The notes: a model not told the origin generated them from the letters alone. Positions 1-30,753 are shown, numbered from the stretch's first letter. The stretch is DNA of 64,000 nt from a bacterium ADurb.Bin236 (GCA_002069885.1 MWCD01000014.1:1-64000); one strand, 5' to 3'. A program made the numbers and translations.

Positions 1-178
1 ACATTTGTCCAGTATAATCATATTGGATTATAAAAGTACCTCGCGGGTTCCCCTGTAGGGCCGACTCCCACGGCCCATGCACCACCCCAAGACCCGCCGG
101 ACGATTGTGACTCAAGGAAGGCATCCCCGCCTCCAGAGACACAACGCCTCGGCGAATAAGCAGTAAAGGGGTGATAGC
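1..178 (+). repeat. Conserved leader of the membrane-protein/helicase cassette, copy A (candidate structured RNA)
   Basis: Untranslated stretch directly upstream of the small membrane protein gene. Its reverse complement recurs at 30574-30753 before the paralogous gene pair, with about four substitutions and one 2-nt gap by hand count, although the proteins behind it are much more diverged. GGGCCG (58-63) and CGGCCC (71-76) form a perfect 6-bp hairpin, enclosed by a possible outer stem of GCGGGT (43-48) with ACCCGC (92-97). TTGTCC (5-10) and TATAAA (29-34), 18 bp apart, could be a promoter. It may extend left of the window. It could be a leader RNA, a regulatory region, or a genome-wide intergenic repeat carried along with the cassette. 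Confidence 0.7.
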
Positions 179-397
179 ATGGACTGGTGCGGAACAGCCT
201 TTATCCTCACGGGCCTCTGGCTCATCGGCAGCAAAAAACGCATTGGATTTCTCCTTAGCATCTTCGGCTGCGTGTTGTGGGCCATCTTTGGCCTGAGGAC
301 AGGCATTCCCAGCATCACAATCGTCAACATCATTTTCATTTTCGTAAACGCGCGTGGCTGGTTTCTTTGGGACAGAAGTGTCACACGCCATGACTAA
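179..397 (+). CDS. Small integral membrane protein, cassette copy A
   Basis: 72-residue hydrophobic protein with two to three predicted membrane segments (about residues 5-17, 22-40 and 45-62) and a GSKKRIG basic loop between the first two. The pattern resembles the C-terminal half of PnuC-type nicotinamide riboside transporters and similar small phage-encoded membrane proteins, but it is far too short to be a whole transporter. A paralogue, 80 residues, sits at 30331-30573 with the same GTAFIL and GLWLIGSKKRIG cores. It lies 27 bp before the helicase gene, so the two are probably co-transcribed from the conserved leader. Function unknown; a partner that ties the helicase to the membrane is only a guess. 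Confidence 0.7.
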   Translation: MDWCGTAFILTGLWLIGSKKRIGFLLSIFGCVLWAIFGLRTGIPSITIVNIIFIFVNARGWFLWDRSVTRHD

Positions 398-424
398 AAT
401 CCGAAAGAGAAGGAGAAAACGATC

Positions 425-3139
425 ATGAAGACAGGCGAACTCATCAGATACGGGTTTTCATCGAGCATTATCGATGTCTGGGAAAAATCCGGCTTGAAGG
501 CTCTACTGCCCGTTCAGTCAATGGCGGTGAGAAAATTCGATCTTTTCGGGCCGGGCAACCTGATTGTTTCAGCGCCGACGTCGTCCGGCAAGACATTTAT
601 CGGCGAAATGGCGGCGGTCAGAAACGCACTTGAAAATAAAAAGGTGTTCTACTGCGTGCCCCTCAAAGCGCTCGCCGAGGAAAAATATCATGATTTCAAA
701 AGGAAGTATGATCAGTACGGTTTCCGCGTCGTCATCTCGACTCGCGACCGGCGCGAATATGACGATAGAATCAATGCCGGTGAATTCGGCATCGCCGTGG
801 TGGTTTACGAAAAGCTCCAGCAATTGCTGACCCAGAACATTGGACTACTCGACGAAATCGGCATTGTCATCATAGATGAATTGCAGATGCTTGCGGACGA
901 CACCAGAGGCGCCGAGCTTGAACTCCTTCTGACGAAGTTGAAGCTTTATAAAGGCAACTTCAAAATCCTTGGACTGTCCGCAGTTATGAAAAACTGCCAG
1001 ATCGTGCCCGAATGGCTAGATGCGAAGTTCCTCGAATACTTCCAGAGACCGGTCGAGCTACGGCGGGGTATTCTCTACAATGGTGTTTTTCATTACGAAA
1101 CATTCAACACTGGTGAGACTGGGCAGGAAAAACTCGTGGAACCCGGGGAAAACGATTGCTCTGGAAGTCTGGCTGCCAATGTGAAGAGGTTTGCTGAACT
1201 TGGCGAACAAAGCCTCGTGTTCCTCAAAGACAAAAGTTCAACGCGCGATATTGCGGCCACGTTTGCAGTGAAATCGAATTTGCCTTCAGCGGATGCCGCA
1301 ATTGAGGAGCTTGCGCATCTTGAGGACACATCTTCAAAGCACCAGCTCGTGGAATGCCTTCAGAAAGGCGTCGCGTTTCACAACGCCGACATGAATATTG
1401 AAGAGCGCGAAGTTGTGGAGCGGCATTTCCGCGCCGGCGCGATTCGCATTCTGTGTTCCACGTCGACGCTCGCCATGGGAGTGAATCTTCCAGCAAGGAA
1501 CGTATTTCTTGAAACGCAGAAGTGGCACACAAACAAAAGATTCAACCGGCCATACAACGCCGCGATTACGAAAGCCGAGTTCGAGAACATGGCGGGTCGG
1601 GCCGGACGCCTCTCGCTTGAAAAGGAATTCGGGCGCGCGATTGTTGTTGCCGCCTCCGAGTTCGAATTCGAGTCCAATATGCACAGATACCTCGACAATG
1701 ATATTGAAGAGATGGGGACGCACCTTTTGGATAGCGATCTCGGCACGCTGGTTTTGAACATTGTAGCCAGCGGTATCTGTAAGACCGGGGGCTCGATAAG
1801 AAATTTCATTCGAAACTCTTTGAGCTGGTACATGGCGCGTAAGAAAGGCACGCTGTCTGATGCCGAATTCGATGAGCGGATCGTCGCCGTGATTAAAAAC
1901 TGCATCCAGGCGGGGCTGTTCAATCACAAGAACAAACAACTCGAAGCGAGCAGTCTTGGATTCGCATGCGCGACAAAAGGCATTTCCGTGGAATCGGCAT
2001 TGAGCATCATTTCATGGTTGAACGAAGCTCGGAACCGTGCAACAAGCGATCTTGAAACGCTATACGTGGCTGCACGCACCAGTGATGCGCACAACTATCA
2101 CATCAACATGTCCACGCGGGAATACAGAGAATCTCCATATCACGATATGCTTGGAAGCCAGCTCGGCCCTGATGCAAGGGCATTGTTCCGGCAGGATATT
2201 GATAATTCCATCTACCGGACATACGAACGCGTCAAGGAAATGAAAGTTGCCCTCATTATGAACGAGTGGATTTCTGAGACGCCATTCATCGACATCGAAA
2301 CAAAGTACAACACTTTTTCCGGCAGCATACAGCGGCTGGCCGAAGGGATAAGCTGGATAGTTGATGCCATCACCGGAATTGCGGCCGTAATGAATGTGGG
2401 TGAAACCCGAGTCCTCCAATTCGGAAAGCTTTCACGCAGACTTCTTGTAGGCATCGAACAACAGGGACTTTCCCTCGCCGTGCTTCGGATTAAAGGGCTG
2501 AACCGACACCAGATAGCCAAACTTGTAAAAGCTGGAATCGCCGATGTCGAAACGCTACGAGCCCGATCCCTTGATGAATTGACAGGGATTATTCCCACCA
2601 CGCTCGCGCGCCGCATTGTGAAGCGATTCGGTTCAGTTGCGCCCATCGTGAAAAACGCCGCGATAGAAAGACCGATAGAAACCCCACATGAGCCGGGTCC
2701 AGCATTAACGAAAGCTTCGAGGTCGTCAAAGGAAAAGCCTCTGTTCAAGTGCCGGGATAAGTTCATGTTTGACGGAAGAGTTGAGAAGAAAAGGACTTAC
2801 ATTGGAATAAATGGCGTACAGACGACCATGACCAACAGGATGTTTGAGATTCTGCTCAGGCTTGCCGTGCAGATGAAGAAAGATGGTATCGGATGGGTTG
2901 AAAAGAACGATCTTGCCCCGGACAACACAACGCAATACCTGTCACGAGCCCGTCGGGAGATTGAACCATTCCTGCTGGACGGCAAATCCGAAATCATAGA
3001 AAACAACGCTTTCGGCGCGTACAGGCTGTCGGTGCCTCCTGAGAATCTGATTTTCGATACGGAAACGCTGGCATGCCACTGGATGCACGGCATCAAGGAG
3101 TTGTCTGAAGAAGTCACAAGTCTATCGGCGACCGGGTAA
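425..3139 (+). CDS. Ski2-like superfamily 2 helicase with C-terminal winged-helix-like domain, copy A
   Basis: 904-residue predicted ATP-dependent DNA or RNA helicase. Visible motifs are Walker A (APTSSGKT, residues 50-57), the DExH-class DELQ near residue 150, STSTLAMGVNLP in the second RecA domain, and the QxxGRxGR-type NMAGRAGRL near 390, which places it close to Hel308/Ski2. A helix-hairpin-helix-like stretch (about 690-730) is followed by a C-terminal domain (about 780-890) with NGVQTTMTNRMFEILLRLA and NAFGAYRLS, reminiscent of OmpR-type winged helices. A paralogue of 906 residues lies at 27621-30341. AAGGAG at 409-414 supports the ATG at 425. Being prophage- or island-borne, it could serve defence, element maintenance or DNA processing; the sequence does not decide. 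Confidence 0.85.
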   Translation: MKTGELIRYGFSSSIIDVWEKSGLKALLPVQSMAVRKFDLFGPGNLIVSAPTSSGKTFIGEMAAVRNALENKKVFYCVPLKALAEEKYHDFKRKYDQYGFRVVISTRDRREYDDRINAGEFGIAVVVYEKLQQLLTQNIGLLDEIGIVIIDELQMLADDTRGAELELLLTKLKLYKGNFKILGLSAVMKNCQIVPEWLDAKFLEYFQRPVELRRGILYNGVFHYETFNTGETGQEKLVEPGENDCSGSLAANVKRFAELGEQSLVFLKDKSSTRDIAATFAVKSNLPSADAAIEELAHLEDTSSKHQLVECLQKGVAFHNADMNIEEREVVERHFRAGAIRILCSTSTLAMGVNLPARNVFLETQKWHTNKRFNRPYNAAITKAEFENMAGRAGRLSLEKEFGRAIVVAASEFEFESNMHRYLDNDIEEMGTHLLDSDLGTLVLNIVASGICKTGGSIRNFIRNSLSWYMARKKGTLSDAEFDERIVAVIKNCIQAGLFNHKNKQLEASSLGFACATKGISVESALSIISWLNEARNRATSDLETLYVAARTSDAHNYHINMSTREYRESPYHDMLGSQLGPDARALFRQDIDNSIYRTYERVKEMKVALIMNEWISETPFIDIETKYNTFSGSIQRLAEGISWIVDAITGIAAVMNVGETRVLQFGKLSRRLLVGIEQQGLSLAVLRIKGLNRHQIAKLVKAGIADVETLRARSLDELTGIIPTTLARRIVKRFGSVAPIVKNAAIERPIETPHEPGPALTKASRSSKEKPLFKCRDKFMFDGRVEKKRTYIGINGVQTTMTNRMFEILLRLAVQMKKDGIGWVEKNDLAPDNTTQYLSRARREIEPFLLDGKSEIIENNAFGAYRLSVPPENLIFDTETLACHWMHGIKELSEEVTSLSATG

Positions 3140-3177
3140 CATATCCGGTCGCCTATGTTGGCGAGAAGTTATTTCAT

Positions 3178-3210
3178 AGGGCTGTCCCATTTCTTTGTGG
3201 ACGGCCCTTT
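3178..3210 (+). terminator. Rho-independent terminator after helicase A
   Basis: AGGGCTGTCC (3178-3187) pairs with GGACGGCCCT (3199-3208), followed by a short T run. It lies 39 bp after the helicase stop. The rest of the 3140-3505 gap holds an 8-bp inverted repeat, TGTTGCCC/GGGCAACA (3268-3295), that could be an operator, and a small CCCCT/AGGGG hairpin (3380-3394). No further gene is visible. Confidence 0.7.
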
Positions 3211-3505
3211 CTGCATGTGGCATCAAATATCCAAGAGATAAAGCCTGTTTTTATGCCTTGTACATCGTGTTGCCCCATGCAACATACGGGCAACATGGAG
3301 ATAACATCTGGGTAAATCCGAGCAGAAATTGCCTGTCTGAAACGCGTTGTTACCACCATTCAATCTGTTTGTAATGTTGCCCCTCCGCGAGGGGTAAGTT
3401 GTACAGAAGTTGTTCCCCACATGATAGGCGATGAATTATCTTGAGAGCAGCTGATTGCAAACGAACCGAAACGTTTCATGCGGGATGAAAATGGAGGCCG
3501 TGAAT

Positions 3506-3691
3506 ATGAAAAAAGAATGGAGATGCTCAAACTGCAGCACTCTTCTTGGTGTGATAGAAAATGGCAATTTAATTCTTCGATACAAGGGGGTGGAATATGT
3601 CGTAACCAAGGGTCAGACGATGGCCGTGTGCAGAAAATGTCACAGAACGAACACCATTGTGGTGCCAGTCACCACAGGGAGTCTGGCATAA
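3506..3691 (+). CDS. Small zinc-ribbon protein
   Basis: 61-residue protein with two CxxC pairs: CSNC (residues 6-9) and CRKC (about 48-51). They are separated by a beta-rich stretch, the layout of a zinc ribbon. It recalls the Com-type translational regulators of Mu-like phages in size and cysteine spacing, but no specific family can be claimed. The start at 3506 is preferred over an upstream ATG at 3455 because GGAGG lies 8 nt before it. It sits between the helicase terminator and the sigma-like gene in the element near tRNA-Ala. Likely nucleic-acid binding; role unknown. Confidence 0.65.
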   Translation: MKKEWRCSNCSTLLGVIENGNLILRYKGVEYVVTKGQTMAVCRKCHRTNTIVVPVTTGSLA

Positions 3692-3780
3692 ACACAATGT
3701 GAATATTTGAGGCGCGAGACGCCCTGAAAACATAGGCAATACGAGGTGCGTGACGCCCAGCCGGAAAGGACGGCGGGCAA

Positions 3781-4587
3781 ATGTCACGCACATCAAAGAA
3801 CGAGATTCGTTATGGTATTTTCACGGAGGTTCATTCAAAAAAATTCAGAATGAAGTTTGAAAAGATGCAAGATAGTTCCGAGACGTTGGATCGCTTTTCG
3901 GATGTAGGCGCTTTTATCCGCTTCATGCATGATGAAAGCGACGAGGATTGGGACATGAAAAATAGCGCGCTTTTCGATTTGATCGTCGCGGCGAGATTTT
4001 CACGAACTCACGGGTCGGCGGCGCAGACACTCTTGATCGCCGTGCTCTGGCCGGGATTGGATCGGATTTCAAAACAGGTCGAACCGGCACCTGAGGCAAT
4101 TCAGGATTCTTTCGCGGAAGTGTACTTTGCGGCGCTTCATGAAATTCAGTCCTGGGACATGGAAAAACGAGAAAGAATTGCCGTCAACATTTTGATGGAC
4201 GTGAAAAAGCGGGTTATGAGGCTGTACGAGTTCATCCGGAAAAAGAAAATGATTCCTTTCGCACCGCCAGACAACACCGAGGAGGACGTAGATGCCGGAT
4301 CGTTTGTAGGAGGAGCCGATGAAATTGAAGATGAGAAGACCGTTGAGATGATGGTTGAAGAAAGAAACTGTGCAGCCGTTCTTGATCGTCTTGTAGCTGC
4401 GGATGTGATCAGCCCGCAGGAATCACTTCTCATCGTGCTTCACATATTCCACGACCGCGATCTTTCCGAAATCGCCGAATCCAGCGGGGTCAATTACAAA
4501 ACGCTCTGTCGAAAGTATGAAAGAGCAATCAGCAGATTGCGAAATTTCTTCGGGGATGAAAAAACCGGTAGGCATTTCTTGAGTTAA
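3781..4587 (+). CDS. Sigma-factor-like protein with C-terminal helix-turn-helix
   Basis: 268-residue protein. Its C-terminal about 65 residues have the sigma-70 region 4 pattern: an acidic linker, then ISPQESLLIVLHIFHDRDLSEIA and a recognition-helix stretch, GVNYKTLCRKYERAISRLR. The middle (about 85-150) resembles sigma region 2 helices only loosely. A very acidic segment (about 165-195) separates the halves. A ribosome binding site-like GGAAAGGA precedes the ATG. Such divergent sigma-like proteins occur in phages and islands, where they direct late or transfer genes. Whether it binds core RNA polymerase cannot be seen. Its own operon is not obvious, because the next gene starts 120 bp away. 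Confidence 0.6.
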   Translation: MSRTSKNEIRYGIFTEVHSKKFRMKFEKMQDSSETLDRFSDVGAFIRFMHDESDEDWDMKNSALFDLIVAARFSRTHGSAAQTLLIAVLWPGLDRISKQVEPAPEAIQDSFAEVYFAALHEIQSWDMEKRERIAVNILMDVKKRVMRLYEFIRKKKMIPFAPPDNTEEDVDAGSFVGGADEIEDEKTVEMMVEERNCAAVLDRLVAADVISPQESLLIVLHIFHDRDLSEIAESSGVNYKTLCRKYERAISRLRNFFGDEKTGRHFLS

Positions 4588-4707
4588 ACATCGTGGCAAT
4601 GAAAAAAACCGATTCTATTATTCAGCGCTGTTCGACTGTATAATTATTTTGCGCTCACAGTACGGGCGATATGTTCAAAATAGACGAGCGGTCGTAGGTA
4701 AAGTGAT

Positions 4708-5091
4708 ATGGATATAAAATTCAGCAAAGGCCCCAAAAAAATAAACTTGTCAAAGGCGGATATTCAAAAGCTCAGACCCGCCCATCACATGCCTAGGGAT
4801 GAGCAATTTCAAGATCTGTTCATGCGATGTATGAAAAATGAAGGTGTTGTGTTAGAGGAAACGTTGATGGACATTGCTATGATCGATCCATTCTCAAAAG
4901 ACGTTGTGGTTCCTGAAGTGTATATAGATGCCATAAAAATGCAGATACAAGATGGGGATAAACCGGAGATATTCGTTTACAAAAAAGGTGAGAGATACAT
5001 TATGAGTGACGACTACGCGGCGTATTATGCATATCTGTCGCTCGGATGGACAAGAATCCCAGTAAGCATTTTGAAACCTGATGAGAAATAG
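4708..5091 (+). CDS. ParB/sulfiredoxin-fold-like protein
   Basis: 127-residue soluble protein. The C-terminal half (GDKPEIFVYKKGERYIMSDD, then YYAYLSLGWTRIPVSIL) matches the general ParB/Srx nuclease-fold pattern of a preferred-value strand, a Y-I-x-S-D turn and a final G-x-x-x-I-P-V-x-I-L strand. The N-terminal half has no recognised motif, and there is no helix-turn-helix as in true partition ParB. It is the last gene before the tRNA-Ala attachment scar and is probably an accessory gene of the left element. Family assignment rests on pattern only. Confidence 0.45.
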   Translation: MDIKFSKGPKKINLSKADIQKLRPAHHMPRDEQFQDLFMRCMKNEGVVLEETLMDIAMIDPFSKDVVVPEVYIDAIKMQIQDGDKPEIFVYKKGERYIMSDDYAAYYAYLSLGWTRIPVSILKPDEK

Positions 5092-5145
5092 ATTGATTGC
5101 ACTTTACCGAAATGAATCTCAAACTGCCAGAGCGGAGGCGAAAAT

Positions 5146-5167
5146 CTGTAACATAGCTGTAACATAC
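5146..5167 (+). repeat. Paired 11-bp direct repeats left of the tRNA-Ala scar
   Basis: CTGTAACATAG is followed directly by CTGTAACATAC. A second pair of TGTAACA boxes, also exactly 11 bp apart, lies on the other side of the tRNA fragment at 5346 and 5357, and is duplicated at 7259 and 7270. Short direct repeats flanking a tRNA 3' end are the usual look of arm-type binding sites for a tyrosine integrase. That role is inferred. Confidence 0.5.
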
Positions 5168-5219
5168 GGATGTTGGCACTCAAAAAAGCTTGTGTTTATG
5201 CGGTTTATTAGGATTGCCG

Positions 5220-5266
5220 TCTGACTGGCAGTCAGAAGGTCACGGGTTCGAATCCCGTTAGCTCCA
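5220..5266 (+). pseudogene. tRNA-Ala(GGC) 3' half, putative attachment-site remnant
   Basis: Anticodon stem TCTGA/TCAGA around a CTGGCAG loop (anticodon GGC), variable loop AGGTC, T arm ACGGG-TTCGAAT-CCCGT, acceptor strand TAGCTCC and discriminator A. U70 in the acceptor strand suits the alanine G3:U70 identity pair. No 5' half (D arm, 5' acceptor) lies upstream, so this cannot be a working tRNA. It is what remains at the distal junction when an element integrates into a tRNA 3' end. The intact gene should lie left of the window. Confidence 0.85.
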
Positions 5267-5416
5267 TCGAAAAATAACCGCTTGAGAAGGCGGTTTTTTT
5301 GTTTCTTGGGGTTTTGTTTGATGTTGCAATAATGCTCAAAAAAGCTGTAACACAAATGTAACACAGAAATATCAACAGGCTTTTTGAAGGCTTATATATG
5401 AAGCGGTGTGTAAGAA
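5223..5416 (+). repeat. 194-bp direct repeat with tRNA-Ala tail, copy 1
   Basis: Starts inside the tRNA anticodon arm and runs through the tRNA 3' end, a terminator hairpin (AACCGC/GCGGTT, 5276-5295, then seven T), paired TGTAACA boxes and a tail ending GTGTGTAAGAA. It is nearly identical to 7137-7330, with about three differences. The sequence beyond 5416 differs from that beyond 7330. The two copies bracket a 1.7-kb segment carrying the DUF3124 gene and PAS debris, as expected for a small inserted unit or a tandem duplication. Confidence 0.85.
5276..5301 (+). terminator. Terminator downstream of the tRNA-Ala remnant
   Basis: AACCGC (5276-5281) and GCGGTT (5290-5295) form a 6-bp stem with an 8-nt loop, followed by a run of T. 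It is repeated at 7190-7215 behind the second remnant. It is probably the original terminator of the tRNA-Ala transcript. Confidence 0.7.
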
Positions 5417-5680
5417 AGGGATGCTCTGACTGTCTTTGCCCATAAAATAATCGAGCAAGACAGAGCATGCAACTTCGGTGGATAAACTGCGCATTGCGGA
5501 CATGTTTTTTTATCATGTTTTAGTGCTGAAGCTGAGTTTAGAGTAAAATATATGGTATAAAACTGGCTTTCGTGCAGTCCGGTCCACATTGGGGCGCAAA
5601 AATCGAGGTTTTACGGGTTGTGCAGAGCCAAAATAGACGCGATATGGGGAATGTCAGTTAATATATGAGGAGGTCGCACA

Positions 5681-6166
5681 ATGGACTACAAAAGAAAGGT
5701 TTCCCTTTATTTCATCACCGCCTGTTTCTTTTTTTCCATCGCACATGAAAAAGCCCTGTGTTCTGAACCGGTTCTTTCCAAAGGACAGACGATATACGTC
5801 CCCGCGTATTCTCACATCTACAGCGGGGACCAAGAACATAAGATGCTGCTAGCGGTTACGCTCAGCATAAGGAACACGGATATGAAGCATTCCATGAGGA
5901 TATTGTCCGTTGACTACTACGACACGAAAGGGAAACTTATAAGGAAATACGTCGGCAATCCGGTCAGCTTGAAAGCCCTAGAATCAACCCGCTATGTTGT
6001 AAAATACAACGATACTTCGGGTGGCTCGGGGGCCAATTTTATCGTAAAGTGGGAATCTGCCAAGGCAATGAATGCGCCTATGGTGGAATCGATAATGATA
6101 GGAGCACAAACCCAGCAGGGCATATCCTTCACATCCAAGGGACAGGCCATAAAAGAACACCAGTAA
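5681..6166 (+). CDS. Exported DUF3124 family protein
   Basis: 161 residues. An N-terminal signal peptide (about 1-28, hydrophobic FITACFFFSIA then a small-residue region) precedes a single DUF3124 domain. Diagnostic stretches are the IYVPAYSHIY strand, LAVTLSIRNTD, the SVDYYD motif and GGSGANFIVKW near the end. Members are periplasmic or secreted and have no established biochemical role. GAGGAGG six bases before the ATG fixes the start. The gene lies alone between the two 194-bp repeats, so it was probably carried in with them. Confidence 0.85.
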   Translation: MDYKRKVSLYFITACFFFSIAHEKALCSEPVLSKGQTIYVPAYSHIYSGDQEHKMLLAVTLSIRNTDMKHSMRILSVDYYDTKGKLIRKYVGNPVSLKALESTRYVVKYNDTSGGSGANFIVKWESAKAMNAPMVESIMIGAQTQQGISFTSKGQAIKEHQ

Positions 6167-6520
6167 TCACATGATTGCCCTTTCGGAGAAAAGGGAGCTA
6201 ATCGTTTTGTGACATAGCCGATGTCAGTTAATCCGTATCGCCGTTGCGTGTAGACCTTTAGCGAGAATGAGAATCAGAAACAAGTACTAGGGCTGGCTTT
6301 GCCGAACACTTGCTTTTCTTCTGAATCAGACAAAATTCGAACATATAAAACATTTCATCCATATGTTTATTAATTATATTTTTAAATCATCGAATGAAAG
6401 CGTCGTTGCAGCTTATAACCTCATTGGATATAGCAAATAATTAGTTTCTAGTAATTCAATTTAACAGGCATTCTTACGATTAATGGCACATGCTGAAGGC
6501 TTACAAGAAAGTAGTATGGT
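6167..6520. other. Intergenic stretch, nothing recognised
   Basis: AT-rich sequence between the DUF3124 gene and the PAS pseudogene. I see no credible open frame, tRNA, strong terminator or repeat. GTCAGTTAAT occurs here (about 6221) and also just upstream of the DUF3124 gene (about 5652), hinting at a small local duplication. Confidence 0.4.
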
Positions 6521-6871
6521 TCAAGTATCAGCTCCGACTCTTAACCCTAGTGTGTTGTCGTAAATAACTTCGTTTTGAAATTCCCAAATATGGGCTTGGC
6601 CCAACTTCTCTCCAAATATTATTTCATTCGTACAAAAAGGACATGCGGTATCACGATTTTGTAAAACTTTATAGCATTTATCACCCTTTGAAATATTGCC
6701 CCATCTTATTTTGAAAGCTTCATTAGCAAACAAAAGCTCGTGGGTTTCTGGGTCGCTTACATAAATAACCTCGTCTATTCAATCAAAAACAGGCAATATT
6801 TCTAAAATATCTTGCACCTGCCACTTTGATGATTGCTCTTCTAGTTCTTCATGGGATCGGTTTCTTGTCAT
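6521..6871 (-). pseudogene. PAS sensor-domain gene remnant
   Basis: Reading from an ATG at 6871, 30 codons are followed by an in-frame TGA (6781-6779), after which the frame continues as IDEVIYVSDPET, LLFANEAFKIRWG, KCYKVLQNRD and CPFCTNEIIFGEKLG, a typical PAS domain with a cysteine pair. The frame then runs into unrelated residues and stops at 6521, so the output domain is missing. A tryptophan codon changed to TGA plus a 3' deletion explains the state. A 40-bp piece of the same region recurs at 9868-9906. It is presumably debris from a histidine kinase or diguanylate cyclase gene. Confidence 0.75.
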
Positions 6872-7136
6872 TCATGCCAACCTCGCACAGATAACGATTA
6901 TGCAACTGTGGAATAATTGTTATTTCGGAAGTGTATTATTAATGACATAGTGAGTCAATGGATCGAGTAATTGTTTGCTATCACACTTCTGTATAGAATC
7001 CAGCGCATCCTTGTCTTTCCACTTCACCACTGGTGGACGTTGATGATGTGTTAAAACACAATTGTGTGTAGCAATGTGTAGCAGAACCCAAATTCAAATA
7101 ACCCAATGTTTATGCGGTTATTTGTTTAACGGTGTG

Positions 7137-7330
7137 GACTGGCAGTCAGAAGGTCAGGGGTTCGAATCCCGTTAGCTCCATCGACAAATAACCGCTTGAG
7201 AAGGCGGTTTTTTTGTTTCTTGGGGTTTTGTTTGATGATGCAATAATGCTCAAAAAAGCTGTAACACAAATGTAACACAGAAATATCAACAGGCTTTTTG
7301 AAGGCTTATATATGAAGCGGTGTGTAAGAA
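7137..7330 (+). repeat. 194-bp direct repeat with tRNA-Ala tail, copy 2
   Basis: Second copy of 5223-5416. The tRNA 3' half here has a T-arm change (AGGGG instead of ACGGG), so the stem no longer pairs fully, and the anticodon stem is lost left of 7137. The terminator hairpin (7190-7209) and the paired TGTAACA boxes (7259, 7270) are kept. Left of it are different 10-bp repeats, TGTGTAGCAA/TGTGTAGCAG (7065-7084), which may be arm sites of another integrase. Confidence 0.85.
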
Positions 7331-7604
7331 AAATTAAAGTTACTCGGCTAGAAAGCCTTTCTGTCTAGCTTTTCATTTATCTTTAAACTTCATTATACAC
7401 AAATTAGACAGTGGCGCTGGCGCTGGTTTATTATTCTCATCATCGCTGAAGATGTGCAAACTCACTTATGATATTCCAATAGTTGATTTTTCATGAAATC
7501 AATTCATCAAATATATTCATTTTGCCTATTATATAAGTTAAAATTGCTTGTTAATTTTGTTTGACATTTCTTTTTAAGAAACATCTACAAATCGGAGCGG
7601 TTTT

Positions 7605-9821: not shown

Positions 9822-9829
9822 CGTTAAAC

Positions 9830-22048: not shown

Positions 22049-22373
22049 GTCTAAAAACCTCCGGCCCGTATGTCCAATTACCCGGATTTTCCACATGTAA
22101 AACCTTGATTATTGTTTTCTATTAGTTTGCGGGACAACCATTTCTAAAAAAAGCTTCCATCTCCCCTTATAAAAAACTTGGCGCGCGCGATTTTGTTGAA
22201 CTTCATTCATTGAAAAAATCTTTTTTTTCGTTTATGAAATGTCTTGATGCAGTTAATTTTGATTGACCCGTATTTCACGCAATCTATGTCAGAAATCGAA
22301 ACGTTCAACAAACCCGGTCCGGAAAAGCTGCGCAGCCGTCCGCTGTCGCGCTTCGCCGGGAGGCGCGCCCGCG

Positions 22374-22802: not shown

Positions 22803-22841
22803 ATCGGATTGCCTCCAAGCCGCGCCTCGCCGGCGCGCTCA

Positions 22842-24140
22842 TCATATTTGCCTTTTGTCAATTACACGCACAGCCTTGCCCACGCTGCGCGGCAGCGTGT
22901 TCGGCTCCACCAGCTTCACTTCGGGCGTCACAAGCGTTTCGTTCTTTATCGCCCCCTGAATGGACTTGCGCAGCCTGTTCAGTTCCTTGATGTCGCCCCG
23001 GAAGAAGGAATCCGCCACCTCTACGTTCACCGTTATGTGGTCTGCCCCCTCCACCCGCGTCAGCTCTATCTGCCACCCGCCGCCCACCTCGGACATCGAC
23101 ATCAGCGCGTCCTCAATCTGCGACGGAAACACGTTCACTCCCTTGATAATCAGCATGTCGTCGCTGCGCCCCGTGATGCGGTCTATACGGCGGTGCGTTC
23201 GCCCGCACGGACACGTCCCCGGCAGAACCGACGTAAGGTCCCTCACCCTGTACCTGATTATCGGCATCGCCTCCCGCGTCAGCGTCGTCATCACTATCTC
23301 CCCGCGCTCGCCCTCGGCCACCGGCTCCAGCGTTTTCGGGTCCACAATTTCGAGGATGTAGTGATCCTCCCACAGGTGCATGCCGTTCTTTTCCACGCAC
23401 TCGAAAGCGACGCCGGGGCCGTTCATCTCCGACAGGCCGTATGAGTTGAACACGCTCGCGCCTAGGAAGTCTTCGAGCTTGCGCCGCGTGCCCTCCGAGT
23501 ACGGCTCCGCGCCCACCAGCGCGATTCGCAGTTTCAGGTCGCGCTTCGGGTCTATCCCCTCGGCGGCGAACTCCTCGCACAGATGCAGCGCGTAGCTCGG
23601 AGTGATATGGATGACAGTCGTGCCGTACATCTTCATGTTCGCCATCTGCCATTTCGTGTTGCCCGCGCCCATCGGGATAGTGAGCATCCCCAGCCGCTCC
23701 GCCCCGAAGTGCATCCCCAGCCCCCCCGTGAACATCCCGTACCCCGTCATATTCTGGAACACATCCGAACTGTCCGCGCCCGTCATCGCCATGCACCGCG
23801 CCACCATGTCGGCCCAGTTGTCGATGTCCGCCCGCGAATAAAACACCGCCGTCGACTTGCCGGTCGTCCCCGACGACGCGTGCAGCCTCACCACATCCTT
23901 CATGTCCGCCGCCACCAGACCATAAGGAAACCAGTCCCGCAAATCCTGCTTCGTCGTGAACGGCAGGCGACGCAAATCCTCAAGCCCGCGCACAGACGCC
24001 GCGTCCACGCCCGCCTCCGCAAACCGCTTCTTGTAGAAAGGAGACCTAGCCGCCCGCGCCGCCACATCCCTCAGGCGCGCAGACTGCAACGCCTCCAGCT
24101 CCTCGCGCGGCATCGTTTCCTTAACCTTGTCCCAGAACAT
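22842..24140 (-). CDS. paaK: Phenylacetate-CoA ligase family protein
   Basis: 432 residues. ATP-dependent formation of aryl-acetyl-CoA from phenylacetate or indoleacetate in the cytoplasm. Motifs are the AMP-binding loop SSGTTGKSTAVFYS, GLSEMNGPGVAFEC, YRVRDLTS, and C-terminal KSIQGAIKNETLVTPEVKLV with the catalytic lysine region. The ATG at 24140 has GGAGG eight bases upstream; an in-frame extension further upstream is not protein-like. With the ACT partner it fits the aromatic amino acid fermentation or assimilation pathway of anaerobes. No indolepyruvate oxidoreductase is adjacent. Confidence 0.9.
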   Translation of the reverse strand: MFWDKVKETMPREELEALQSARLRDVAARAARSPFYKKRFAEAGVDAASVRGLEDLRRLPFTTKQDLRDWFPYGLVAADMKDVVRLHASSGTTGKSTAVFYSRADIDNWADMVARCMAMTGADSSDVFQNMTGYGMFTGGLGMHFGAERLGMLTIPMGAGNTKWQMANMKMYGTTVIHITPSYALHLCEEFAAEGIDPKRDLKLRIALVGAEPYSEGTRRKLEDFLGASVFNSYGLSEMNGPGVAFECVEKNGMHLWEDHYILEIVDPKTLEPVAEGERGEIVMTTLTREAMPIIRYRVRDLTSVLPGTCPCGRTHRRIDRITGRSDDMLIIKGVNVFPSQIEDALMSMSEVGGGWQIELTRVEGADHITVNVEVADSFFRGDIKELNRLRKSIQGAIKNETLVTPEVKLVEPNTLPRSVGKAVRVIDKRQI

Positions 24141-24328
24141 TTTCATCGCCTCCGGAGCGCCACAACATACAGACACCAATAATAATACCAACCGTCCCGC
24201 ATTTAAAGCGCGCCGCGCCATGCTCTCATGCTCCGCCCCTCGCCGCCCCCGCCGAACACCTTGAACACAACCACATATCCGAACCACGCGGCATTTGCCT
24301 GCCGATAGATGATCCTCCATGTTCATTT

Positions 24329-24367
24329 GTGTGCCATGCGCAAAGCTTTTTCCTTCGTGCATGATGC
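24329..24367 (-). repeat. Dispersed CATGCGCAA hairpin, copy 3 (reversed)
   Basis: Reverse complement of the 14775-14813 unit, with GTGTGCCATGCGCAA at one end and GCATGATGC at the other. AATGGGAAGTTTCATTTAA at about 24386 also resembles AATGGGCAGTTTCATCTAA near copy 1 (about 14848), so the repeat may be part of a longer dispersed element. The rest of 24141-24545 is featureless. Confidence 0.7.
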
Positions 24368-24545
24368 TGTTTTATCAAGTGGCTAATGGGAAGTTTCATT
24401 TAATTCTTCGATAAATGCGGCATAAGCCATCCCCATGCCCGAACCCCACTTGACACACACGACAAACCGAATAAAATTACACAGTTGAAAAAAGCCCGGG
24501 CAGCAGACCCGTCCGCGCCGGGCCATAGAAAAGGAACGCCGCAAA

Positions 24546-24617
24546 TCCTCGGTAGCTCAAAGGTAGAGCAAGCGGCTGTTAACCGCTAGGTTGCTGGTTC
24601 GAATCCGGCCCGGGGAG
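24546..24617 (+). tRNA. tRNA-Asn(GTT)
   Basis: Complete 72-nt cloverleaf. Acceptor TCCTCGG pairs with CCGGGGA (one G-T pair); D arm GCTC/GAGC; anticodon stem AGCGG/CCGCT around CTGTTAA (anticodon GTT); T arm GCTGG-TTCGAAT-CCGGC; discriminator G. CCA is not encoded. It marks the chromosomal end of the right-hand element and was probably its attachment gene. Confidence 0.95.
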
Positions 24618-26348
24618 TTGAATCGTGCGCTGTGGGTAAACCACATCGCGCACGATTCTTTTATTTTGGTCGAAAAACTCCGCGACATCCGCACCTTTTT
24701 GCACCTGTTTTAGCCCTTTTGCCGTTACATCGCCGTTACCCCCCCTAACGGCAGAAACTGCGACTTCCGACTCGAGTTCCGTGATTCTCTTGCAGTTATC
24801 TTCAAACGGCACTTTTAGATGTATGCGAGCGACCTTTCTGTCGATGATTTCCACACGATCCACGAAGAATTCAATTAGAGAACGCTGGTCTTCGAACGGG
24901 TATTCATTGAACTCCTTGAATATGATCATCGCGCGTCTTTTCACCAATTCGAAGCCCTCGCGCATGACGGTGTCGTAATAGTCGTCTTGCACTATTAATT
25001 GAACTTCCGCGAGGAGTTCCGTCCGTTCTTTTTCCAAGTTTGCTATCAAATCCTTGCACTTCAGAGGGTCCAATCCAGCACCGATGGCGTTGTAGTAGTT
25101 CTCGATTTTCTTTTCTATCTGGCCGACGCGGCGTTTGATGAATTCCGAGTCCTTTCCAAAACACGACCGCCGAGTCTTTATCTTCGCCTCACACGACAGC
25201 CGAATCTCCTCTATTTTCTCGGGGTTACAAAGGTTCTTTTTGAGTATTTCGAGGACTTCATTCTCTATGAATTCACGCTTGATTTGGAATGCGTCGCACG
25301 TCTTTTTCCCGTTTCGGATGTAGCCGCCGCAGATGTAGTAGTAATTGTAATATTCCTCGCCCTTGGTCTTCTTTCCCCGGAGCGTGATTTTCTGCTTCCG
25401 ACCGACGTATTTTGAACCGCAATCGGCGCAGAATATTAGGTTGCCGAGCAGGTATCTGGCATAGTGAAAATCGTTGTCGAAATTCGTCATATTCCGCTTC
25501 TCGACCGCTTTCCGAACCTTATCAAAAAGTGCTTTTTCGATAAGCGCTTCGTGGGCGTTGTCGACGATTATCATCTTCTCCCGCGGGTTCCTCTTTCCCT
25601 TGCTCATCTTGTTCCAGACAACGCGACCGATATAAACCTCGTTTGTAAGAATGTGGTGGACAGAAGAACGACTCCATTTCCGAGCGCCGTTCGGGCCCGG
25701 TACATTTTCCTCATTCAGAGCGTTGCATATCTGGATGTGACCGAGCCCTTTGTTCGCGGCCATGTCGTAGATGCGCTGAACGATTCGGATATGTACCGGA
25801 TCGCCAGGAACAAGGATATGCCGAATGGCGGTTCCCTCTTCGCGTTTATCTCGTCGGTATCCATAGGGCGCGACGCCACCGTTCTGGAATCCGCGACTCG
25901 CATTTTCGTTGAGTCCTTTGATTGTCTCGAGTGCGAGATTCATCGAATAAAACTGATTGATGACTTCGATCATGCCCTCGTAAAGGAATCCAGACGGTGT
26001 CTCCGGGTCGTAGACTTCGGTTATGGATTTTACAGTGACACCATTCTTCTTTAGTAGCGATTTGAAGATGATGGATTCCTCGCGGTTGCGTGAAAAACGG
26101 TCGAGCTTGTGGACGAGGATGAATTTCGGCTTGTGCTTTTTGCAGTAGGAAATCATCTCACAAAAGCCGGGGCGTTTGTCTGCCGGATGGTATGCAGATT
26201 CCCCTTCATCTCGGAACTCGGAGACCAGTTTCATGTCCGGGTCGCTTTCAACGTAGCGGTGAATCGCTTTCTGCTGCGCCGGAATCGAGATGTCTTTCTG
26301 CGCCTGTTCATCCGATGATACTCGGTAGTAACTTACGACTTCTATCAA
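24579..26348 (-). CDS. Large serine recombinase (element integrase)
   Basis: 589 residues. The N-terminal resolvase domain has YYRVSSDEQ with the nucleophilic serine at 11, and LVHKLDRFSRN. A recombinase domain (about 155-265) and a zinc ribbon (CADCGSKYVG, then ICGG and KKTC) follow, then a coiled coil (about 400-450). This architecture integrates and excises phages and conjugative elements between short att sites. The start is TTG at 26348, with AGGAGG nine bases upstream. The last residues (PGPDSNQQPSG) are read from the antisense of tRNA-Asn and its terminator, so the present C terminus was probably created by integration. Confidence 0.9.
   Translation of the reverse strand: MIEVVSYYRVSSDEQAQKDISIPAQQKAIHRYVESDPDMKLVSEFRDEGESAYHPADKRPGFCEMISYCKKHKPKFILVHKLDRFSRNREESIIFKSLLKKNGVTVKSITEVYDPETPSGFLYEGMIEVINQFYSMNLALETIKGLNENASRGFQNGGVAPYGYRRDKREEGTAIRHILVPGDPVHIRIVQRIYDMAANKGLGHIQICNALNEENVPGPNGARKWSRSSVHHILTNEVYIGRVVWNKMSKGKRNPREKMIIVDNAHEALIEKALFDKVRKAVEKRNMTNFDNDFHYARYLLGNLIFCADCGSKYVGRKQKITLRGKKTKGEEYYNYYYICGGYIRNGKKTCDAFQIKREFIENEVLEILKKNLCNPEKIEEIRLSCEAKIKTRRSCFGKDSEFIKRRVGQIEKKIENYYNAIGAGLDPLKCKDLIANLEKERTELLAEVQLIVQDDYYDTVMREGFELVKRRAMIIFKEFNEYPFEDQRSLIEFFVDRVEIIDRKVARIHLKVPFEDNCKRITELESEVAVSAVRGGNGDVTAKGLKQVQKGADVAEFFDQNKRIVRDVVYPQRTIQLPGPDSNQQPSG
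24620..24665 (+). terminator. Terminator of tRNA-Asn
   Basis: GAATCGTGCGC (24620-24630) pairs perfectly with GCGCACGATTC (24648-24658), with an inner TGTGG/CCACA, then a T-rich run. It begins three bases after the tRNA and lies inside the recombinase frame read on the other strand. Confidence 0.8.
24721..24752. repeat. CCGTTA boxes near the attachment end
   Basis: CCGTTA occurs at 24722 and 24733, exactly 11 bp apart, followed by an inverted TAACGG at 24746. It is the same box and spacing as the six-unit array at 27450. These lie within the 3' part of the recombinase gene. Confidence 0.5.
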
Positions 26349-26413
26349 AGTTGAAAACCTCCTTTCCCTTATAGGTCAGGTGTATGTTAAATGGATGTGC
26401 CCGAATATCAACT

Positions 26414-27382
26414 TCATTTTGGACATTCCATCCGAGTGTAAAATGTGCCTTTTCCGTTCTTATGCGCGACGATATCTTTGCCCTCCATTTCATGCAGGAT
26501 TTTGATGGCCGTCGTGTGCGAAACCTGGAGCGCGCTGCGCACATCGGCGTTCTTGATTTTTGCGTTCTGCGAGAACAAATCCATGATGCGCTTCCGCTTT
26601 TCATCGAACGAAACCAGCACTTTTTTCTCTACTTGGGATTTCGCGGCCGGAACGCGAATCGGTAAATCCTGCGCTTGAATAGTCTTCCGGTTGGACGGCA
26701 GTAAAACAGACGCCTGAATAACCACATTCATGAGTTCGCGGACATTGCCCGGCCAGTCGTAAGCGCGCATCTTTTTGATGGCGGAACCAGTGAATCTTTG
26801 TTGGGGATTCGTTTCCTTCAGGTAGTGCGAGGCAATGTCCATGATGTCTTCCGCTCGTTCATTGAGGCGGGGAATCTCGATGACGAAGCGTGAAAGACGA
26901 TAATACAAATCCTCGCGGAATCGCCCCTCGGCCATTTCCTTGCCGAGGTCTTTATTCGTGGCCGCGATGATTCGGACGTCGGCGTGGGACATGCGATCCT
27001 CTCCGACTCGCTTGAAATCACCGTATTCCAGGACGCGCAGAACCTTTGCTTGAGCTGAAAGCGACAGGTCTGCGATTTCATCGAGGAACAGCGTTCCTTC
27101 GTGGGTCGCTTCGAGTAGTCCCCGCCGGCGCTCGCTTGCGCCGGTAAATGCACCTCTGGAATGTCCGAACAGCTCGCTATCGAGAAGATGGTCCGCCAGC
27201 GCGGAACAGTTGATGACGTTCATCGGATGTCCCGCCCGTGGGCTTTTCTCGTGGATGTATCTTGCGAACAGTTCTTTCCCGGTGCCGGATGCACCAAGGA
27301 GAAGCACTGGAAAACTCGTTTCCGCCACTTTCCCGGCAATCTCTTTGACACGCTTTATCTTGTTGCTTTTCCCTATAATCAT
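26414..27382 (-). CDS. Sigma-54-type AAA+ transcription activator with C-terminal winged helix
   Basis: 322 residues. The AAA+ domain (about 1-235) shows GASGTGKE (Walker A), the sigma-54-contacting GAFTGA loop, GTLFLDEIADL (Walker B) and REDLYYRL. No receiver or GAF domain precedes it, as in PspF. The C-terminal about 65 residues (KRKRIMDLFSQNAKIKNADVRSAL, then SHTTAIKILHEME) form a winged helix, not the usual Fis-type helix-turn-helix. The ATG at 27382 fits the family start; a TTG at 27391 is also possible. It sits between the recombinase and the iteron array, so it may control element genes. Target promoters are not visible. Confidence 0.85.
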   Translation of the reverse strand: MIIGKSNKIKRVKEIAGKVAETSFPVLLLGASGTGKELFARYIHEKSPRAGHPMNVINCSALADHLLDSELFGHSRGAFTGASERRRGLLEATHEGTLFLDEIADLSLSAQAKVLRVLEYGDFKRVGEDRMSHADVRIIAATNKDLGKEMAEGRFREDLYYRLSRFVIEIPRLNERAEDIMDIASHYLKETNPQQRFTGSAIKKMRAYDWPGNVRELMNVVIQASVLLPSNRKTIQAQDLPIRVPAAKSQVEKKVLVSFDEKRKRIMDLFSQNAKIKNADVRSALQVSHTTAIKILHEMEGKDIVAHKNGKGTFYTRMECPK

Positions 27383-27449
27383 TGTTTCCAAGACACCATG
27401 TGTTTTTCATAACAGCCTCTACGTTAATGAAAAAAGTTCGTGTTAGGAA

Positions 27450-27515
27450 TAACGGAAGTGTAACGGATGGTTAACCGGGGGGTAACGGCAGGATAACGGC
27501 GGGGTAACGGGAAGT
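27450..27515. repeat. Six-unit 11-bp iteron array (TAACGG)
   Basis: TAACGG begins at 27450, 27461, 27483, 27494 and 27505, with TAACCG at 27472. That is six units with an exact 11-bp period, each followed by a G-rich 5-nt spacer. The array lies in the non-coding gap between the AAA+ activator start and the helicase terminator. One helical turn per unit suggests a protein oligomerising along one DNA face: a replication or excision factor, or the activator itself. Confidence 0.85.
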
Positions 27516-27567
27516 GCGAAGCGATGAAATAATGGCTTGGTTTAAGACTTTTTTATACATAACAAAA

Positions 27568-27593
27568 AGGCTGCCACGATGTGCGGGCAGCCT
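27568..27593 (-). terminator. Terminator of helicase B
   Basis: AGGCTGCC and GGCAGCCT form a perfect 8-bp stem, followed on the minus strand by five U, 28 bp after the helicase stop. Confidence 0.85.
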
Positions 27594-27620
27594 GATATTT
27601 TCTGGTGTGAAAAATCGTCT

Positions 27621-30341
27621 TCAGCTCACGGCTGAGAACTTGGCGATTTCCTCCGAAAGTTCCCGGATGCCATGCATCCAATGGTCCGGGAGGACATCCG
27701 CATCGAATGTGATATTTTCGGGCGGAACCGAAAGCCGGTACGCCCCGAATGAGTCGTTTTCGAGAATGTCGACGCTGGAATCGAGAAGGAAGGGCTCGAT
27801 CTCCTTGCGCAATCGTGAAATGTACTGCGCCGGATTGTCTGATGTGATATCGGATTTGCCGACCCACCCGATGCCGTCTTTTTTGATATGGACTCCCATC
27901 TTCAGGAGAATCTCAAAACTCCGGTTGGTAATGGATGTCTGCTTTCCGTTGATGACGATGTGAGTCCTTTTTTTGTCGACGCGCCCGTCGAAGTGGAAAC
28001 GGTCTTTGCACTTGAACGTGGTCTTCTGCTGGATCGGGATGGGTTCAGATTTCGGAGCCTGCGCAGCAGGAACAACATCGATGGTTGTCTGCACCGCTTT
28101 TTCAGGGGCTGCCACTTCAGGCTCTTCGCTTTTGTGTACGCGAGCAAGGAGTGCCTTGGCCAGCCGTTCCGGGATGATTCGTGAAAGGCTCATCAACGGG
28201 ACTGCTTTCAGCGCATCCATGTCGGTAATCCCCGATCCCACGAGCTTTGATAGGTGGTTGCGTGTAAGACCTTTCTGGCGCAGTTCGGCGAATGGAAGAC
28301 CATCTTCAACGACACCGAAAAGGAGCCGTCGTGAAATCTTCTCGTACTGCTTCACCTGGAGCGCGTCGACATCAATGACTCCGGCCAGACCGGCGATGGC
28401 GTCCACGATCCAGCTTATCCCACCGGAAACACGCTCTACTGTGCCGGATGTGACGTTGTATTTCTGCTCGATTTCTCCTACCGGAACTCCTTGAATCCAG
28501 TCATGCATTACAAGTGCGACCTTCATTTCCTTGATCGCATCGTAGCTCCGCTCAAGCGGGTCGTCGATCATCTTACTGAACATGGCTTTTGCACACTGGT
28601 CAAAAAGCATGTTGATCTTCGTATGGTACCCGCATTCGTACTGCTCCCGCGTAGCCATATTGATGAAGTAGTCCTTCGCATTCTTGGTGCGGGCGGCGAC
28701 GTAAAGAATCTCGATCTCCCGTGGGGACCGCGTTTTCACGGCGCGAAGCCAATTTATCAGTGGCCGGGCCGTGTCGACGGAAATCCCCTTCACGGCGGCA
28801 ACATACCCCAGTTTACTGGTCTCAAGCCCGTTCGCCGAGCGTTTTATCAGGCCATATTCGATGCAGCGCTTCAGACCTTCCGTGAGTTTCCTTCCGAGTT
28901 CTTTCACATTCATGTCCTGCTTCTGGCGAACGATGAACCAGCTCAGTGAATGCTTTATGAAGTTCTGAATCTCAGATTCGCTGTGGCAGATACCGCTTGC
29001 GACGAGGTTCAAAATGACTGTGGCCAGATCGTCAGAGAAGAAATGCGGTTCGAGGGCCTCAAGGTCGCCCTCGATGTATTTCTTCATGCCAGAAGTGAAC
29101 TCGATTAGTCTATCGGCGACGATGATTGCTCGCCCGAATTCCTTCTCATGAGAGAGACGACCGGCGCGGCCAGCCATGTTTTCAAATTCGACTTTCATCA
29201 ACGGTCTGGTGTCAGGTCTACCTGTTATGGGATTTGAATGCCATGTCTCGGCTTCGATGAAAACGTTCCGCACCGGAAGATTGACTCCCATGGCGAGCGT
29301 CGACGTGGAACAAAGAATCCGAATGTTGCCGAGCCGGAAGTGCCGCTCGATGATCTCCCGTTCCCTAAAGTTCATGTCCGCGTTGTGGAAAGCGACGCCG
29401 TGTTCGAGGCATTCGATGAGACTCTCTTTTGACGAGGTGTCCTCGGCATGTTTCAGGGTTTCTATCGCATCCTGCGCCTGCGGGAATGAAGAACTTCCAG
29501 CAATCGCGGCCGCAACTGTCCGGGTGGCATTTTTATCCTTCAAAAAGATGAGACATTGCTCCCCGTTCTTTGCGATTTGCAGGACGTTGGGGATCATGAT
29601 GTTGAGCGTCTTCCCGTCCGGGACATGGATCATATCCTCGGTGCCGGATTCTCCGGTGTTGAACTCTTCGTAATGGAACTTTCCTTCATAGAGAAGTCCA
29701 CGCCGCAGCTCAACCGGACGGATGAAGTATTCCAGGAAGTCGGCGTTCAACCATTCCGGGACTGTTTTGCAGTCCTTCAACACCGCTGAAAGGCCGAGTA
29801 TTTTGTATTCGCCTTGATACATTCTCAGCTTGGTCAAGAGCATCTCGAGGTCGGCGCCCCGGGACGGATCGGATATCATCTGAAGCTCATCAACGATAAT
29901 GAGTCCGATCTTGGACAAAAGCCCGATATTCCGGGTCACGAGTTGCTGGAGCTTTTCATATACGATGATTGCGATGTTGAAATCACCGTTCTCAATGTCC
30001 TCATCAAACTCCCTGTGGTCCCTTGTCGAGATGACGATTTTGTAACCGTATCGGGCATACTTGCGCTTGAATTCGTACCACTTTTCTTCCGCCAGCGCTT
30101 TCAATGGCACGAGATAAAAGGTTTTCTGCTTATCCTCGACCATTTTTATCGCGGCGATCTCACCGACAAAGGTCTTCCCAGACGAGGTCGGTGCTGAAAT
30201 AATGAGGTTCTTCTTTCCGAAAAGGCCATATTTCTTGATGGCCATGGCCTGAATGGGGAGGAGTTTTTCAAGGCCGGACTCCTTCCACGCGTCCACAATG
30301 TTTGTAGGAATGCCGTACTTCACCAGTTCATCAGTAAACAT
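27621..30341 (-). CDS. Ski2-like superfamily 2 helicase with C-terminal winged-helix-like domain, copy B
   Basis: 906 residues, clearly paralogous along its whole length to the 425-3139 product (roughly 60% identical by eye in the N-terminal half). It has Walker A APTSSGKT, DELQ, STSTLAMGVNLPVRN and NMAGRAGRLSHEKEFG. The C-terminal winged-helix-like region is the best conserved end (NGKQTSITNRSFEILLKMGV and NDSFGAYRLSVPPENI). A P/Q/A-rich linker (about 770-800) precedes it. The ATG at 30341 is chosen because GGAG lies eight bases upstream; an ATG six codons earlier overlaps more of the membrane-protein gene. It is probably translationally coupled to that gene, which ends inside its start region. 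Confidence 0.85.
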   Translation of the reverse strand: MFTDELVKYGIPTNIVDAWKESGLEKLLPIQAMAIKKYGLFGKKNLIISAPTSSGKTFVGEIAAIKMVEDKQKTFYLVPLKALAEEKWYEFKRKYARYGYKIVISTRDHREFDEDIENGDFNIAIIVYEKLQQLVTRNIGLLSKIGLIIVDELQMISDPSRGADLEMLLTKLRMYQGEYKILGLSAVLKDCKTVPEWLNADFLEYFIRPVELRRGLLYEGKFHYEEFNTGESGTEDMIHVPDGKTLNIMIPNVLQIAKNGEQCLIFLKDKNATRTVAAAIAGSSSFPQAQDAIETLKHAEDTSSKESLIECLEHGVAFHNADMNFREREIIERHFRLGNIRILCSTSTLAMGVNLPVRNVFIEAETWHSNPITGRPDTRPLMKVEFENMAGRAGRLSHEKEFGRAIIVADRLIEFTSGMKKYIEGDLEALEPHFFSDDLATVILNLVASGICHSESEIQNFIKHSLSWFIVRQKQDMNVKELGRKLTEGLKRCIEYGLIKRSANGLETSKLGYVAAVKGISVDTARPLINWLRAVKTRSPREIEILYVAARTKNAKDYFINMATREQYECGYHTKINMLFDQCAKAMFSKMIDDPLERSYDAIKEMKVALVMHDWIQGVPVGEIEQKYNVTSGTVERVSGGISWIVDAIAGLAGVIDVDALQVKQYEKISRRLLFGVVEDGLPFAELRQKGLTRNHLSKLVGSGITDMDALKAVPLMSLSRIIPERLAKALLARVHKSEEPEVAAPEKAVQTTIDVVPAAQAPKSEPIPIQQKTTFKCKDRFHFDGRVDKKRTHIVINGKQTSITNRSFEILLKMGVHIKKDGIGWVGKSDITSDNPAQYISRLRKEIEPFLLDSSVDILENDSFGAYRLSVPPENITFDADVLPDHWMHGIRELSEEIAKFSAVS

Positions 30342-30573
30342 GATGCTCACTCCTTTCATGTTTTTCGTAGGAAATGTCTGACCAGCGGTACCAGCCGCGG
30401 GCGTTTACGAAGACAAAGATGATGTTGACGACCAGAATGCTCAGGATGTGATGCTGCAGCCCATAGACAGCCCAAAATAGGCATCCGACGATGCCGACGG
30501 GAAACCCGATACGTTTTTTGCTTCCGATGAGCCAGAGTCCTGAGAGGATAAAGGCCGTTCCGACCCAGTCCAT
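30331..30573 (-). CDS. Small integral membrane protein, cassette copy B
   Basis: 80 residues, hydrophobic, with the same two- to three-helix plan as the 179-397 protein and identical GTAFIL and LWLIGSKKRIG blocks. It has a longer hydrophilic tail (about 62-80). Its stop lies ten bases past the helicase start, so the genes overlap here but are separated by 27 bp in copy A. The nucleotide sequence is about three-quarters identical to copy A by eye, lower than the leader and higher than the helicase. Confidence 0.7.
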   Translation of the reverse strand: MDWVGTAFILSGLWLIGSKKRIGFPVGIVGCLFWAVYGLQHHILSILVVNIIFVFVNARGWYRWSDISYEKHERSEHHVY

Positions 30574-30753
30574 GCAATCACCCCTTTACTGCTAAGTTTC
30601 GCCGAGGCGTTGTGTCTCTGGAGGCGGGGATGCCTTCCATGAGTCACAATCGTCCGGCGGGTCTTGGGGTGGTGCACGGGCCGTGGGAGTCGGCCCTACA
30701 GGGGAACCCGCGAGGTACTTTTATATTCCAATATGATTATACTGGACAAATGT
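30574..30753 (-). repeat. Conserved leader of the cassette, copy B
   Basis: 180-nt reverse-complement counterpart of 1-178, keeping the GGGCCG/CGGCCC hairpin, the outer GCGGGT/ACCCGC pairing and the promoter-like boxes. The match stops sharply at 30753. The remaining 30754-30894 stretch, to the end of hamB, is AT-rich with no feature. Confidence 0.75.

Follow-up and report, generated by a model that had tools for sequence, protein, structure and literature searches.

Why would two integrated elements in one bacterial genome each carry, near their attachment ends, the same short module made of a leader RNA, a small membrane protein gene and a helicase gene? We addressed this question in nucleotides (nt) 1 to 64000 of contig MWCD01000014.1 from bacterium ADurb.Bin236 (GCA_002069885.1), the whole of which is called the window below. 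A reading made from the sequence alone (hereafter the sequence-only reading) had claimed a three-part cassette at two places and had proposed it as a functional unit. We found the cassette at both places, copy 1 at 1-3139 on the + strand and copy 2 at 30764-27621 on the - strand, with the parts in the same order: promoter, leader RNA, small membrane gene, helicase gene. The cassette is a real, selected unit, composed as follows.

11 nt before the window start, on contig C43: -35 box TTGACC of copy 1, from a 75-nt overlap join
13..18, + strand: -10 box TATAAT of the copy 1 promoter, from a three-way alignment
~22..178, + strand: structured leader RNA of copy 1, 5' end deduced from the promoter; covariance-model match
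179..397, + strand: membrane protein gene of copy 1, 72 amino acids (aa), three helices, half-PnuC type
425..3139, + strand: helicase gene of copy 1, 904 aa, Hel308-type, C-terminal winged helix
30736..30764, - strand: promoter TTGACT-N17-TATAAT of copy 2
~30574..30732, - strand: structured leader RNA of copy 2; covariance-model match
30331..30573, - strand: membrane protein gene of copy 2, 80 aa, three helices, half-PnuC type
27621..30341, - strand: helicase gene of copy 2, 906 aa counted from its ATG, C-terminal winged helix

Since the contig itself begins within the copy 1 promoter, so does the window; its first 75 nt are also present on contig C43, which provides both the -35 box and the upstream neighbor of copy 1. 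A third cassette copy with the same arrangement is present in congener G005 (JAKQPS010000076.1), so the join between C43 and the window is real. In a consensus scan, copy 2 and the congener copy, which is syntenic with copy 1, each scored 11/12 for the near-consensus sigma-70 promoter TTGACY-N17-TATAAT; that of copy 1 was placed by alignment. The membrane gene and the helicase start overlap by 11 bp in copy 2, and the two genes are adjacent in copy 1.

The proteins of the two copies have diverged: the helicases are 55% identical in aa and the membrane proteins 67%, and identical fourfold-degenerate sites amount to 5/13 in the membrane gene and 42/141 in the helicase gene (30-38%). The leaders share 152/157 nt (97%), well above the fourfold sites of the helicase gene (Fisher test, p = 7e-38) and of the membrane gene (p = 2e-10). 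Copy-to-copy identity was 45% upstream of the -35 box and 21/21 through the -10 region; within the membrane gene, it was 86% over codons 1-24 and 61-73% beyond. The conserved block reaches from the vicinity of the -35 box to the membrane gene's start codon, and the resemblance is not due to chance. Because the block is bounded by the promoter and the AUG, selection on the promoter and leader RNA fits better than a conversion tract. A recent duplication within a single genome, named beforehand in the sequence-only reading as the result that would speak against a functional unit, is excluded by the 55% identity of the helicases and by the congener copy. Together, the conserved promoter and leader, the fixed gene order, the divergence of the helicases and the congener copy support a functional unit carried on two diverged elements.

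We then considered what the leader might do. It is an RNA of ~157 nt whose fold stands out from those of shuffled sequences (z = -3.8 for copy 1 and -4.7 for copy 2). In all three copies, the Shine-Dalgarno (SD) sequence GGGGUG is predicted to be paired with a probability of 1.0, its partner strand being CACCCC, ~85 nt upstream, and the AUG is predicted to be paired with a probability of 0.78-0.99. The predicted cost of freeing the ribosome-binding site is 10-11 kcal/mol, and SD-region pairing in ten control genes of the window was 0.19-0.80. The differences among the three leaders disrupt no predicted pair. From these folds, we predict that both the SD sequence and the AUG of the membrane gene are locked by the leader. 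An Rfam search of the window and a loose-threshold search with the leader placed it in no family and gave no riboswitch match. A covariance model of the leader, run on the helicase relatives and on 7 genomes of the helicase-bearing phylum, matched only the three cassettes; the exact leader pattern had no match in IMG/VR, nor did leader plus membrane-gene DNA in plasmids. The leader is a member of no described RNA family, and its combination with a membrane protein and a helicase is new. We rejected an upstream open reading frame as an explanation of the leader, since the start varies between ATG and GTG, the frame is shifted by an indel of 2 nt and one of the changes is nonsynonymous.

The sequence-only reading had described the large protein as a Ski2-like helicase; specifically, it is of the Hel308/Hjm type, with an added winged helix. 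The best sequence match in the PDB was archaeal Hjm/Hel308 (2zj2; E value of 2e-110, 373 bits, residues 11-747). An AlphaFold2 model of copy 2 (predicted local distance difference test score [pLDDT] of 78) had its best fold match with Hel308/Hjm structures (TMt of 0.82-0.88), and the helicase matched PF21280, Hel308 domain 4. The similarity in sequence and fold is full length, covering Hel308 domains 1-5. The helicase motifs are intact in both copies, with DELQ as motif II in both. After residue ~780 comes an extra domain, in which the order of strands and helices in the model fits a winged helix; the corresponding domain of a relative is recognizable as a Trans_reg_C winged helix (PF00486-like). 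With the winged helix alone as query, a phmmer search of the PDB returned nothing significant. PADLOC profiles for HamB, the Hachiman helicase, also matched the helicase core. We rejected an assignment as HamB, since HamB reached 94 bits (E value of 8e-26) in the same PDB search, versus 373 bits for Hel308. On this sequence and model evidence, we assign the protein, with its C-terminal winged helix, to the Hel308/Hjm-type DNA helicases; as such, it may unwind DNA at forks in the 3'-5' direction.

Hel308 has been stated to be absent from bacteria (PMC12278908). Our survey shows Hel308-type helicases in bacteria, namely, in the Hydrogenedentota phylum, in prophages of several phyla and in caspase fusions on plasmids. 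The helicase occurred in 56/68 Hydrogenedentota-phylum genomes (L065-L094), nearly always in single copy and with no widely conserved neighbor; the members examined have the winged helix, and the gene looks like a resident, vertically held cellular gene. Its sister is a mobile clade (support of 99/99) that unites the window helicases with Planctomycetota loci and IMG/VR contigs and that includes all mobile-element helicases except the caspase fusions. Serine integrases lie near the helicase in several of the mobile-clade loci, and in 5 independent elements a LexA-like gene (LexA_DNA_bind plus Peptidase_S24) stands 0-100 bp upstream of the helicase. The plasmid relatives, 8/8 of those examined (L022-L025 and L042-L045), are fusions with an N-terminal caspase domain (PF00656), a possible abortive-infection architecture. 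They belong to the same helicase family (27-34% identity), and in the tree they fall outside a clade that holds the prophage, Hydrogenedentota-type and Zipacnadia-type helicases, the last being a second cellular group. Betalipothrixviruses carry a helicase of the same kind (phrog_6819 match, 1e-80).

Neither the membrane gene nor the leader was found outside this genus in the profile-checked loci or in 8 genomes and records searched whole, and a profile of the membrane protein had no match on the helicase relatives. The proposal of the sequence-only reading that the leader and small gene mark a helicase subfamily does not hold, as the wider family usually occurs without both. Among the relatives searched, the leader and small gene were found only in this genus. 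One relative (L054) has a strong promoter, TTGACA-N17-TATATT, and a leader of ~200 nt; we discarded it as support for a shared leader, since its fold is like that of shuffled sequences (z = 0.07).

The small membrane protein matched half of PF04973 (PnuC) with 31 and 41 bits, above the curated cutoff. With 72-80 aa, it forms one three-helix half of the full seven-helix transporter. It also matched phrog_2421, an 84-aa phage family of no assigned function. Searches for it in plasmids, phages and IMG/VR gave no match, and its AlphaFold model, of low confidence (pLDDT of 67), was not used for a fold search.

The surroundings of the two copies in the window are listed here.

5223..5330, + strand: attachment-type repeat at the helicase end of element 1, a tRNA 3' half (GGC, Ala-like) plus terminator
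7137..7244, + strand: second copy of this repeat, 97% identical to 5223-5330 over 108 bp
24546..24617, + strand: tRNA-Asn(GTT), attachment-site candidate of element 2
24579..26348, - strand: large serine integrase of element 2 (PF00239/PF07508; phrog_95 integrase, 4e-101)
26414..27391, - strand: sigma-54-activator-like AAA protein (PF00158; phrog_7998, of no assigned function), between integrase and helicase
30895..46785, - strand: defense cargo of element 2, with Hachiman HamB/HamA, GmrSD-AlbA_2, SIR2 plus prokaryotic Argonaute (pAgo), a type IIG restriction-modification system and a PLD-SNF2 helicase
48718..64000, - strand: phage backbone, with three tyrosine recombinases, amidoligase, amidase/endolysin and baseplate

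Element 2 thus runs from tRNA-Asn through the serine integrase, the AAA protein, the cassette and the defense cargo to the phage genes. The tRNA-Asn that had been proposed as its attachment end is intact and abuts the serine integrase; for an empty-site comparison, the congener contig stops 4 nt past this tRNA. The cargo forms a dense defense island within this prophage-like element; in it, GmrSD is fused to AlbA_2, and the pAgo (663 aa) lies beside SIR2. Parts of the backbone at 48718-64000 are common to the congener's element (80-92% nt identity). Element 1 comprises the attachment repeats, the cassette, a Druantia/DISARM-like cargo, which lies on C43, and stretches with homology to the backbone of element 2. 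Its supposed tRNA-Ala end does have an attachment-type repeat, which holds only a tRNA 3' half with its terminator: ARAGORN detected no tRNA at 5223-5330, and the Rfam score there was at threshold. A cargo of three genes (DruE-like, DpdE-like and DrmMI-like) is 99.4% identical between congeners, with flanks at 85-96% (L004, 488-11999; L018, 6741-18561), and these sequences suggest that it was exchanged recently between them. The carrier of the cassette is recognizable as phage derived from its serine integrase, endolysin and baseplate genes, and the cassette is a fixed module beside a variable cargo slot.

We made four side observations. The congener has more copies of the half-tRNA repeat, which suggests that integration has occurred repeatedly at tRNA-Ala sites. 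At 3781-4587, past the helicase gene of copy 1, is encoded a 268-aa protein with weak similarity to sigma factors that is also present in the congener. The three tyrosine recombinase genes lie in tandem at 51478-54933 and resemble a recombinase-in-trio element. An intergenic repeat of ~80-100 nt (for example, in the 24306-24425 region) recurs dozens of times across the genus (G000, G004, G005 and G006), with 78-94% identity.

What, then, is the cassette for? We favor, with a probability of roughly 0.4, the reading that it is an operon gated by RNA, part of the lysogeny module of a prophage, and that it serves in DNA repair, in replication or in sensing genome integrity. This reading builds on the promoter, the near-frozen leader, the gene order, the helicase family and the phage-derived context. 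The cassette would be an operon that sits at the lysogeny or attachment end of integrative elements, a family derived from temperate phages. The leader is predicted to pair with the first gene's SD sequence and AUG and so to hold translation of the operon low, and a signal would open the leader. The helicase may act for the resident element where DNA is damaged or stalled, in replication restart, repair or integrity sensing, the way archaeal Hel308 and HamB work, and its coregulated partner or output may be the membrane protein. Since a LexA-like repressor holds the place of the leader and membrane gene in sister elements, protein repression may have been replaced by RNA gating in this cassette. 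An extended form of the proposal, in which a new class of ligand- or protein-sensing leader controls a membrane effector and an integrity helicase that protect or police the lysogen, the whole having evolved from the LexA-helicase pair, seems unlikely to us at present. Several points weigh against the favored reading. The caspase-fused relatives and the flanking defense genes point to defense, and an operon serving DNA metabolism alone would leave the membrane protein without an explained role. Covariation was nil, with 0/48 pairs changed on both sides, the three leaders being too alike, and gene conversion, with both leaders present in the same cell, could also account for their identity.

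The main rival, which we hold to be possible but doubtful, is prophage defense or superinfection exclusion: the helicase would sense the abnormal DNA of an invader and trigger the small protein to perturb the membrane, and the leader would keep this toxic effector off. The 8/8 caspase fusions among the plasmid relatives speak for it, as does HamB, a related Ski2-like helicase that is a proven damage sensor gating an effector (PMC12278908). A small hydrophobic protein under a predicted translational lock, carried on an element with integrase, endolysin and baseplate genes, is also what this model expects, and both cassettes border defense systems. However, the fixed place of the cassette beside a variable cargo slot means that this proximity is not independent evidence, and the membrane protein resembles a half-transporter (PF04973) and no known effector. 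Mainly, the model is weaker than the favored reading because the nearest cellular relatives are near-universal and single copy in one phylum, unlike defense genes. Resemblance of the protein to PnuC raises the alternative of metabolic cargo, a half-PnuC importing nicotinamide mononucleotide or a related compound for the lysogen with the leader as its riboswitch; the PF04973 score and the matches to phage PnuC-like PHROGs agree with it, but Rfam gave no riboswitch match even at a loose threshold and PnuC has no link to a Hel308-type helicase in the relatives, so we regard it as the least probable of the explanations considered.

The leader itself invites two more explanations, both of which we judge improbable. 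It could be conserved as an RNA that acts in trans in immunity or copy control, as P4 CI RNA and CopA/CopT do, and through which elements that share it recognize each other, and near-identical leaders do sit on a translational target in two elements of one cell. Yet the consensus scan detected no antisense promoter of at least 9/12 within the leader, no complementary stretch of at least 14 nt occurs elsewhere in the elements examined, and both elements coexist in one genome. Alternatively, the leader could be a recombination hot spot, or be homogenized by gene conversion, with cargo swapped beside it; one side of the copy 1 leader is indeed 99.4% identical to the congener over 16.5 kb, and the other side 96%. 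We rejected the leader as a recombination point, since toward the helicase divergence varies in mosaic fashion (about 0-14% per 250 nt) and does not jump at the leader, and the limits of the block, near the -35 box and the start codon, are those expected of a promoter plus leader.

Both proteins belong to known families; the leader and the combination are what is new. The cassette is a compact, testable unit, in which a near-invariant leader of no known family is predicted to control two prophage genes, one for a membrane protein and one for a Hel308-type helicase. It links a repair helicase of archaea and animals to the biology of bacterial mobile elements and allows a direct test of the idea that a helicase senses damage while the output coupled to it can be exchanged.

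Several known systems resemble the cassette in part. The mRNAs of type I toxin-antitoxin systems likewise have predicted sequestration of the SD sequence and AUG of a small hydrophobic open reading frame; here, no antisense promoter was detected, the reading frame encodes a half-transporter and a helicase gene follows. Hachiman (HamAB) also has a Ski2-like superfamily 2 helicase, but the cassette contains a PF04973 protein instead of HamA (DUF1837), and a genuine Hachiman system stands beside copy 2, its HamA (34004-34909) paired with its own HamB (30895-34038). The caspase-helicase fusions of plasmids share the helicase family, with the effector fused N-terminally and no membrane gene or leader detected. 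The LexA-like repressor and helicase pair of Planctomycetota and uncultured prophages has a helicase of the same clade in the same position near an integrase, with a repressor gene where the cassette has the leader RNA and membrane protein. Archaeal Hel308/Hjm is alike in full-length sequence and fold, and the cassette helicase differs from it in being bacterial and prophage borne, in its extra winged helix and DELQ motif II and in forming an operon with a membrane gene and a leader.

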